A stretch of DNA of 10,848 bases. Origin: an uncultured Collinsella sp. Its GTDB lineage: Bacteria; Actinomycetota; Coriobacteriia; Coriobacteriales; Coriobacteriaceae. The translations under genes were made by a program, and so were the position numbers. The notes beneath the pieces were generated by a model. It saw only the letters and a program-made list of their open reading frames with translations. It ran no database searches and was not told where the DNA came from. This document shows, in pieces, positions 2,691 to 9,186 of the stretch (its first letter is position 1; the number at the start of each line of letters is the position of its first letter). Location of the stretch: NCBI GenBank assembly GCA_902495955.1, contig CABUZE010000015.1:1-10848 (forward strand), given 5' to 3'.

Positions 2691-3033
2691 CAAGCTGCCC
2701 CTCACCATGTCCACTACCCTGCCTTCTGTGTCGTATACAATCCGTGCGTTGCGCGGAATATCAGGTTGTTCCCACCAGCTGACCTGGTATTTGACCCCAC
2801 ACTTGCGCACCGGGGTGTTTGCTCGGGAGGCCGCAGCCACCTTCACGACTGACCCGCTCGCCCGCGAGGCGGTATTGCCCCAAAGAAAGTAGAACGGACG
2901 GTGCGGCTTACATCTAGGACGCGCCATGATCGCGCCGCGCGCACGCGGTCGCTTACGTGGATCCCTTTGACCGCGTCTGTCTTGGACTAGGACGGGCATT
3001 TCGTCCGTCCGCAACCACAGCCTGGTAGGAACG
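2691..3033 (-). other. Long 5' leader of the solute-binding protein gene
   Basis: Transcription from the TATAAT at 3040-3045 would start near 3033, giving an untranslated leader of about 340 nt. The stretch stays open in the downstream reading frame but lacks a ribosome site at its internal ATG (2925-2927) and uses rare codons, so I read it as non-coding. It can form several local hairpins, for example ACCAG/CTGGT and an overlapping CAGGT/ACCTG pairing at about 2763-2783, which would be mutually exclusive. I recognise no known riboswitch or small RNA family. Confidence 0.4.
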
Positions 3034-3039
3034 AAGCGC

Positions 3040-3068
3040 ATTATAACTAAGTTCAAGCTAAAGTTTAA
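3040..3068 (-). promoter_or_regulatory. Sigma-70-type promoter for the solute-binding protein gene
   Basis: The minus strand carries a perfect -10 box TATAAT (3040-3045) and, exactly 17 nt upstream, TTAAAC (3063-3068) as a weak -35 with three consensus matches. The surrounding 3040-3070 region is clearly AT-rich against a GC-rich background. It is the best promoter seen upstream of the gene starting at 2690. Confidence 0.65.
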
Positions 3069-3126
3069 GGTTAGGGGCGTCATTCGCATCTCGAGTACAG
3101 ATTTTGCGGGTCGGAGCGGACCATTC

Positions 3127-3188
3127 GTGCCCCTTTGATGCCCGTAGCTCCCCTACGGGTAGCTCCGGGGCACCCGTCTCAGGGTGCC
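3127..3188. repeat. Cluster of nested GC-rich inverted repeats
   Basis: An outer stem GTGCCCC (3127-3133) / GGGGCAC (3167-3173) encloses a 7-bp hairpin CCCGTAG (3141-3147) / CTACGGG (3153-3159). A further perfect pair GGCACCC (3169-3175) / GGGTGCC (3182-3188) overlaps the outer stem, so the two are alternatives. GTAGCTCC also occurs twice directly. There is no T run, so it is not a standard terminator. It abuts the inverted-repeat element that begins at 3190. Function unknown. Confidence 0.5.
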
Positions 3189-3189
3189 G

Positions 3190-3406
3190 TGTGCAAAAAA
3201 CGGCAAATATGAGTACTGTTACCAATTTAGTAGCAGCGTATTACCGCCTCACGAGCCCTTTTTGAGTTCCGCACAGCCTGCTTGGCGCCAAGATATTCCA
3301 CATTCGTTTATTATCTCTTCGCTGAATCCAGATTATCGGCCCAAGTTTCTTTGTTTTTGCTGTCACTAATCTAGTAACAGTACTCATATTTGCCGTTTTT
3401 TGCACA
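3190..3406. mobile_element. 217-bp element with 33-bp perfect terminal inverted repeats (MITE-like)
   Basis: Positions 3190-3222 are the exact reverse complement of 3374-3406, and similarity continues imperfectly inward for about 14 more bases (9 matches). The arms begin TGTGCAAAAAACGGC. Each arm ends in a nested palindrome of consensus CTGTTACYARWTTAGTRRCAG (3216-3236, and the complement of 3360-3380). Near the centre is a perfect 12-bp palindrome CTTGGCGCCAAG (3281-3292). The element is visibly more AT-rich than its surroundings and encodes no convincing protein, which fits a non-autonomous miniature inverted-repeat element or a large intergenic palindrome. No target-site duplication is obvious at the ends. 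It lies about 35 bp past the stop of the gene ending at 3442 and could also act as a bidirectional transcript end, since each strand reads a long stem ending in TTTTTT. Confidence 0.7.
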
Positions 3407-3441
3407 GAGCATATAAACAGACCCCCTATAAAGCCATAGTT

Positions 3442-4551
3442 TTACGCTGGTTTGAGCCCAAAGCACGCTCGGAGCGTATTCAGCAGAGCATCTTGCCTCT
3501 TTCGACGAGCCTCTACGCGATTCTGATATCGCTTACCCATACGCTGGTGGATGCGCCATGCGAGTGCTTCCATCGCTTCCATGTCGCAGAGCATTTCGTT
3601 GTTGACCGTCGCGACCTCGATTCCCATAGTAATCAAGCCCGTGTTGCGTTTTTCATCATGGATACGTCCCCTCCGGGAGGAATGGCCCAGCTCACCGTTG
3701 TATTCCAGGTCAAACTGGGCTGCTTCCTGATACGCATCGCAAACTGCATGCGGCATCCCCGAGATTGCCCGCGCGCGGTCATCGAACTCGATCTTGTAGT
3801 CGGTCTTAAAGGGACCGCAGGCAAATCCGCCATAGGAAAACGGAAGCGAAAACAGAGCGAGCATGATGCACTCCATGGGCGAGCGCGGGTTTTCTGACAA
3901 GTAGGGACACAGACGCTGCAGTTGTTTGGCCGCATTCCCCTTGCATACCGCGAGGTAATCTGCCAGACGATCGGGCGTCAGCACCGGCTCAACCTCAAAG
4001 TAGCCCACGTCTGCTGGCTGGTCCTTGTCCTTTGCAAGTTTATTCGTAACGGGCGAGGTGTAGGGAGGCAGATACTTCCCGCGGTCACTCAGCGAAATCT
4101 TAGAGCACAGCTCCTGGGCCAGGGCAAATGCCTGGATACAGCCGACCTCGCGCGCGACGGCTACGCAAAGGGCCTCGGGAGATTGACTGTACACCCCCGG
4201 TTCCACCTCTAGAATCGAGCCGGCGGGCAACTCGGAGCATACGGACCAGCTCACGCCAAGAATACGGCGGCGCTGCGCCGCAGATCCCACCAGCAAGCAA
4301 AGATCTTCTTGCACCTCGCCGCTTGCGGCCCCAATCCGCACCAAGTCGGGAAGATAGATGTCCTCGGTCGAGGGCGACGACGTGCGCAGCACATGGCGCT
4401 CTTCATCGGGATCAAGGTCCCTCCAGCTTATGTAGCCCATCTGCCGGCGCTCGGAGCGCATCATGCGTAGCGCCGAGGCGCCTGTTAGGATTACGGAAGC
4501 CGCTAGCTGTTCGCTTGTCGGCTCGTTGCGCCGCTCAATCTTCACTGCCAC
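3442..4551 (-). CDS. Putative PD-(D/E)XK/DUF559-like nuclease-fold protein
   Basis: The 369-residue product is not a named protein. Its layout is one I associate with Coriobacteriia: an N-terminal AbiEi-like part, a central SPMEC...LPFSYGGF segment (224-243), and a C-terminal domain resembling DUF559/Vsr endonucleases. That domain contains FDLEYNG (280-286: D281, E283), H290, and D299...R302 before a GIEVATV strand. An acid-x-acid pair, a following His, and an Asp-x-x-Arg before a hydrophobic strand are the usual pattern of that fold. Catalytic activity is inferred only. The GTG at 4549-4551 is chosen because AGGGG, overlapping the comF stop, is 7 nt upstream; the longer open frame to 4923 only shadows comF. 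The gene follows comF by 10 nt and ends the operon. DNA repair, competence-linked DNA handling or defence are all possible. Confidence 0.75.
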   Translation of the reverse strand: MAVKIERRNEPTSEQLAASVILTGASALRMMRSERRQMGYISWRDLDPDEERHVLRTSSPSTEDIYLPDLVRIGAASGEVQEDLCLLVGSAAQRRRILGVSWSVCSELPAGSILEVEPGVYSQSPEALCVAVAREVGCIQAFALAQELCSKISLSDRGKYLPPYTSPVTNKLAKDKDQPADVGYFEVEPVLTPDRLADYLAVCKGNAAKQLQRLCPYLSENPRSPMECIMLALFSLPFSYGGFACGPFKTDYKIEFDDRARAISGMPHAVCDAYQEAAQFDLEYNGELGHSSRRGRIHDEKRNTGLITMGIEVATVNNEMLCDMEAMEALAWRIHQRMGKRYQNRVEARRKRQDALLNTLRACFGLKPA

Positions 4552-9113: not shown

Positions 9114-9186
9114 CTAAGTTGCGGTGAAATAGGGACTGAATACGCCTTCTAACAGCAAATACAATCCCTATTTCACCGCAAGTTAG
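9114..9186. repeat. Large palindrome 2, overlapping a stop codon
   Basis: Positions 9119-9135 (TTGCGGTGAAATAGGGA) are the exact complement of 9165-9181, with four more outer base pairs (CTAA 9114-9117 / TTAG 9183-9186) after one mismatch. The loop is 29 bases. The right arm runs into the stop codon (9183-9185) of the serine hydrolase gene. It lacks a T run but could still form the 3' end of that transcript. Confidence 0.7.

Follow-up and report, generated by a model that had tools for sequence, protein, structure and literature searches.

A palindrome beyond the 3' end of a hypothetical gene

The window, that is, the whole stretch of 10,848 nt of an uncultured Collinsella sp. (contig CABUZE010000015.1) analyzed here, contains a long palindromic element between a raiA RNA and a hypothetical gene for which Pfam and NCBIfam searches gave no match. 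The perfect arm of the palindrome lies about 35 bp past the stop codon of this gene. The locus comprises the following features:

2770..3030, minus strand: raiA RNA (RF03072; Rfam), context outside the element
3185..3411, no strand: whole palindrome, counting the imperfect stretches at the outer and inner sides of the arms (inverted-repeat ranking; homologue in C. aerofaciens)
3190..3222, plus strand: left arm, 33 bp, perfect (sequence, inverted-repeat ranking)
3195..3200, plus strand: A6 tract just outside the CGGC base of the stem; minus-strand RNA would carry U6 behind the hairpin (sequence)
3205..3218, plus strand: left family core, AAATATGAGTACTG (core motif search)
3223..3373, no strand: interior separating the perfect arms, which drifts among genomes (genome comparison)
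3374..3406, minus strand: right arm, 33 bp, perfect (sequence, inverted-repeat ranking)
3378..3391, minus strand: right family core, reverse complement of AAATATGAGTACTG (core motif search)
3396..3401, plus strand: T6 tract outside the stem base; U6 after the hairpin in plus-strand RNA (sequence)
3442..4464, minus strand: adjoining hypothetical gene (extent borrowed from the annotated homologous gene in NZ_OY725717.1)

The perfect 33-bp terminal inverted repeats reported in an earlier, sequence-only reading of this DNA were verified at 3190-3222 and 3374-3406, with 151 nt between them. The longest inverted repeat of the window has 53-nt arms (3185-3237 and 3359-3411) that are 87% complementary and separated by a 121-nt spacer. 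A homologous 227-bp stretch of C. aerofaciens (NZ_OY725717.1) shows 93.4% identity to 3185..3411. By its matches, the window is Collinsella DNA near to C. aerofaciens. Folding of 3180-3416 yielded -94 kcal/mol for the plus strand (shuffle mean -49.5, z = -10.7) and -102.7 kcal/mol for the minus strand (shuffle mean -54.5, z = -12.5), and none of 200 shuffles was as good for either strand. The same reading described the element as AT-richer than the surrounding genes, and indeed the GC content of 3001-3500 is 0.490, compared to 0.57-0.63 for most adjacent steps. Each arm contains a short inner hairpin (CTGTTAC...GTAACAG) that is a mere part of the palindrome. A known RNA was rejected given that an Rfam search of the element matched no curated family. 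A different palindrome, at 9114-9186 of the window, consists of CTAAGTTGCGGTGAAATAGGGA and its complement (21 of 22 positions paired) with a loop of 29 nt.

A dispersed palindrome family in part of the genus Collinsella

In G001, the nearest relative among the genomes examined, the arms match several places, largely as inverted pairs; thus, dispersed copies with the same ends, proposed as a check in the sequence-only reading, exist within a single genome. We detected family members as paired cores, AAATATGAGTACTG ... CAGTACTCATATTT, located 145-175 bases apart; a reversed control pattern gave zero matches. Among the matches listed, paired cores were found in at least 21 of the 43 Collinsella genomes (21 of 65 over the whole family sample) and in none of the 22 genomes from five other genera of Coriobacteriaceae. 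Intact copies sort by interior and flanks into at least 14 loci; an initial flank-based clustering, which merged loci, probably via shared insertion sequence (IS) DNA, was not used. Copies from different loci share 0.785 identity in the arms (55 pairs) and a mean gapless identity of 0.353 in the interiors (24 pairs of equal length). The window's palindrome is a member of an intergenic family that is dispersed in part of the genus Collinsella; its own locus is denoted A.

Like MITEs, the family members are short and non-coding, carry terminal inverted repeats, and occur in several copies per genome. No autonomous transposon with the family's ends was present among the matches listed, and the distant core pairs that were examined enclose an IS256-family element whose ends differ from those of the family. 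By eye, no target duplication is visible around the copies at the loci shown, although old copies may have lost it. TIMEs are Tn3-derived miniature elements, and such an origin was rejected given that the Tn3 transposase (PF01526) was found in none of the four genomes searched. A phage or plasmid origin was also rejected: phage records and viral contigs contain no match to the family, and in the sole matching record of the plasmid collection, the element is surrounded by ordinary chromosomal genes. NZ_OY725717.1 (L034), a 900-kb sequence named plasmid 6 of C. aerofaciens, may be a mislabelled piece of chromosome.

Other palindromes are present in G003. By motif sorting, 34 of its 87 long inverted repeats belong to a second, larger family, for example, 1186825-1186989 (L190) and 1555362-1555518 (L209). 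Its arms, 21-49 nt long and in many cases perfect, vary in sequence from locus to locus, whereas the loop of about 60-74 nt is similar throughout and contains an inner hairpin; an Rfam search of six chunks of G003 gave no match for such neighboring families. A third family, with eight copies by motif sorting, for example, 1839191-1839343 (L223) and 1846547-1846700 (L224), has ends like CAAAACTATGCCGGTTTAC and an inner hairpin CCGCAGG...CCTGCGG.

Same-site inheritance

We traced locus A through the DNA of the neighboring gene (window 3412-4000), independently of the core. The gene was found in 19 of the 43 Collinsella genomes and is accompanied by the element in all 19: 16 copies are intact, and three (G001, G006, and G011) have an IS end inside the element, with solely the gene-side half in view in G006 and G011. 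The two family-bearing genomes lacking a match to the neighboring gene are G033, which is 72% complete, and G003, where gene and element are missing jointly. G022 has no paired cores; here the element is absent, and the 3442-4464 gene is largely deleted. Because the junctions lie near 3122 and 4510 in G003 and near 3119 and 4378 in G022 (left and right, respectively), both losses look like deletions. At two other G003 loci without a copy, the junctions retain scars of the outer arm ends, as judged by eye. The raiA side is present in 21 of the 22 genomes that lack the family. At 17 of these 21 loci, a match to the comF-side gene lies near it, inverted in one case, and the 420 bases following the best match showed nothing resembling the core.

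The exactness of the arms had been taken to suggest recent origin, active mobility, or selection on the folded form. With the element at the same site in 19 of 19 genomes carrying the gene, exact arms do not imply recent insertion, so recent origin and active mobility at locus A lose ground, whereas selection on the arms gains support from the comparisons below. Empty sites in sister strains, expected for a mobile element, were seen in 0 of 19 genomes, and the deletions in G003 and G022 remove the gene too. The pattern is that of an element fixed at one site and lacking a parent transposon among the matches listed, as the sequence-only reading anticipated for an immobile sequence, but it is multi-copy rather than single. 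Judging from these site comparisons, the palindrome at locus A appears not to have arrived recently by mobile insertion. A MITE that inserted recently and is still active strikes us as highly improbable: the exact arms and the recurrence of the ends at several loci within one genome are compatible with it, but same-site presence in 19 of 19 genomes, for which we rejected it, interiors that differ between loci, and the failure to see any clean empty site with a target duplication all speak against it.

Two narrow length classes

Lengths were measured from 22 bp before one core through 22 bp after the other, with core spacings of 140-230 admitted. The 61 distinct intact copies are 242 (27 copies), 231 (22), 232 (5), 243 (3), 230 (2), 241 (1), and 223 (1) bp long, so that 60 of 61 measure either 230-232 or 241-243 bp, two classes about 11 bp, or about one helical turn, apart. 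Both classes occur at two loci, through loss of 11 bases or of 10 plus 1 bases (L066/L248 and L071/L249). Part of this pattern could reflect common ancestry, with one founder of 231 bp and another of 242 bp; interiors only about 35% identical between loci, however, should under such descent have accumulated many indels.

Alignment was ungapped in 12 of 20 copy pairs, at identities as low as 0.68, although two of the aligned pairs (L040/L264 and L063/L252) may represent different loci. With pairs below 5% divergence dropped, by which locus J fell out, there were 0.012 indels per substitution in the interiors versus 0.045 in non-coding flanks, and 0.004 versus 0.027 at locus A; the ratio is reversed at loci D (0.041 versus 0.010) and O (0.051 versus 0.019) and equal at locus I. 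Distinct indels within elements number 12: nine single-base events and one event each of 9, 10, and 11 bases. The flanks have 37, nine of which are of other sizes; this size contrast alone is not significant (P = 0.09). The G003 copy at locus E (L036) was excluded from the indel-ratio, indel-event, and divergence analyses and examined separately; additional loci, or copies that differed in length, were also omitted from the latter two analyses. Because indels of 1, 9, 10, or 11 nt within loci are unlike those of a reading frame, and the longest ORF contained in the element encodes 61 aa (3184-3369) and no conserved protein, a coding reading was rejected, in agreement with the original description of the element as non-coding.

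A central hairpin with a score of at least 11, centered at 152.5-158.5, is present in 13 of 18 representatives of the 242 class, and its two sides appear by eye to co-change at loci D and M. The copy in the window lacks it (best score 6).

Conserved arms and drifting interiors, one of them probably exchanged

Within loci, divergence is 0.007 in the core, 0.117 in the outer arms, 0.112 in the inner arms, and 0.223 in the interior. Core conservation is biased, the core having served as the search key for most copies, except at locus A, where divergence is 0.01 in the core versus 0.27 in the interior. At loci B and O, the outer arms are kept no better than the interior. Over 11 loci, we found 27 double changes in the arms, 23 of them from pair to pair, where about four double changes would be expected if the arms were independent; single changes are more numerous, with 33 that break and 29 that restore a pair. 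These counts use one reference per locus and genome pairs that are not independent, ignoring ancestry. The left and right inner arms have distinct sequences, each of which is kept; therefore, pairing alone is not what is kept. G-T and A-C mismatches in the stems are nearly equal in number (76 and 90 in the arms, 25 and 26 in the inner hairpins), a lack of wobble bias that speaks neither for nor against an RNA made from one strand.

At locus E, the G003 copy has the flanks and outer left arm of G004 and G010, including a rare core variant, and is 232 rather than 231 bp long. Its interior is similar to theirs at chance level in both directions (0.41-0.46), and the inner-arm types are swapped. 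As the swapped arm types come with an unrelated interior, this is not a plain inversion; the simplest reading of this one case is that the interior may have been replaced through the arms. The interior has a single orientation at locus A (16 intact copies) and likewise at loci B, C, D, F, I, K, and M. No plain inversion switch was found among these loci.

Insertions of an IS256-family element

An insertion sequence of 1506 bp, encoding an IS256-family transposase (above the NCBIfam cut-off; Pfam Transposase_mut), sits within family copies of several genomes. Of 12 full-length transposase copies in G001, five adjoin a family arm (loci E, A, N, G, and H), and one further IS copy lies just outside a family copy. 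We surveyed 24 distinct sites at which both IS ends and 200 bp of flank were present. An exact 8-bp duplication occurs at 22 of these, and nine, amounting to about eight separate insertions, are inside family copies: at locus N, both insertions share orientation and duplication, whereas at locus G, two insertions within about 1 base of each other have opposite orientations. G019 has an additional insertion at locus K. An inverted repeat with a score of at least 16 lies at or across 10 of the 24 sites; of 200 intergenic positions picked at random in G003, 5% have one (P about 6e-6, for sites that are not fully independent). Outside the family, 4 of the 15 sites also reach this score; at 6 of 24, the score is 8 or less. 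The IS256-family element also lies within palindromes resembling the third G003 family (L085 and L097). Given the IS-interrupted copies and the deletions, single copies are dispensable.

Gene ends, possible termination, and a proposed DNA-level constraint

By codon-usage gene calls, 7 of the 14 family loci lie between convergent genes, 7 between tandem genes, and none between divergent genes, although orientations may be wrong, since several loci have no called gene within 500 bp; the tally counts the annotated neighbor in the window, which gene calling had missed. For background, among gaps in G003 that span 250 bp or more, 238 are tandem, 90 divergent, and 86 convergent. Four of the 14 loci (B, C, I, and K) have a small terminator-like hairpin no more than 100 bp away; in the 2950-3700 region of the window, there is no second terminator-like site besides the palindrome.

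The main rival to the explanation we favor, although itself rather unlikely, is a bidirectional intrinsic terminator or 3'-end RNA hairpin, in which transcripts from either direction would form a long stem followed by six U residues. As in such terminators, A6 and T6 tracts directly flank the CGGC/GCCG base of a stem located at a gene 3' end; both strands fold strongly, divergent loci are missing, and the window locus offers no other terminator-like site. Unlike known terminators, however, the palindrome has a very long loop (151 nt between the perfect arms); termination does not require arm sequence and length to be kept, yet both are; a terminator-like hairpin is already nearby at the four loci listed above; and IS insertions inside copies are tolerated. 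Slightly more doubtful still is a dead MITE, a relic that a since-lost transposase scattered in the distant past and that now decays without function. Dispersed copies with inverted ends and an AT-rich interior, the lack of an autonomous parent among the matches listed, and the occurrence of scars, half copies, and IS insertions in several copies would fit such a relic, but the interiors have few indels, the arms co-vary, and neutral decay is disfavored because of the difference between core and interior divergence at locus A.

We tentatively favor, at somewhat less than even chances, an ancient MITE- or ERIC-like palindrome family that is now inherited vertically and kept at the DNA level by recognition of its two ends in a fixed geometry. 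Its dispersal, in the distant past, would have been transposon-like (MITE-like), and the simplest recognizer would be a putative protein that spans the two ends from a single face of the helix. This view builds on what the comparisons show directly: copies dispersed over several loci, inheritance at the same site, conserved arms that co-vary, few interior indels, restricted lengths, and a nearly unchanged length even in the locus E copy with its unrelated interior. Speaking against it are the dispensability of single copies, the reversed indel ratios at loci D and O, the poorly kept outer arms at B and O, the excess of single over double changes, and the part that common ancestry could play in the length classes. 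A more specific proposal, a DNA-looping element with inverted ends of about 50 bp, whole-turn spacing, and a free or exchangeable interior, bound by a putative architectural or regulatory protein of Collinsella near gene 3' ends, is speculative and about as improbable as the terminator.

Relationship to known palindromic elements

According to portions of PMC10969869, Correia elements are 204 bp long, are cleaved by RNase III at their ends, and number over 120 copies per genome, and effects of ERIC at gene 3' ends have been reported. Like these MITEs, as far as portrayed there, the Collinsella palindromes are non-coding sequences of about 200 bp with inverted ends, dispersed in intergenic regions; unlike them, they show no visible target duplication and no parent among the matches listed, differ in their interiors between loci (about 35% identity), fall into two narrow length classes, and, compared to Correia elements, have far fewer copies per genome. 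The REP and BIME sequences treated in sections of PMC1525189 are likewise intergenic palindromes hit by insertion sequences, and these sections report that ISRm5, of the IS256 family, is in a type 2 association with REPs (5 of 7). REPs measure 20-40 bp (excerpts of PMC3733652); the unit described here, by contrast, measures 231 or 242 bp and pairs arms that lie far apart. Text searches on palindromes, miniature elements, hairpins, or REPs in Collinsella or Coriobacteria turned up no description of the family. It falls within the wide class of palindromes dispersed between genes, but its length classes are unusual and its interiors are unusually free to vary.

The palindromes add a case of an IS256-family element favoring palindromic sites, and locus A illustrates that exact arms need not signal a young insertion. 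In Collinsella, a common gut genus, the family keeps its ends and length while the middle drifts, which makes a DNA-level function of intergenic palindromes directly testable.
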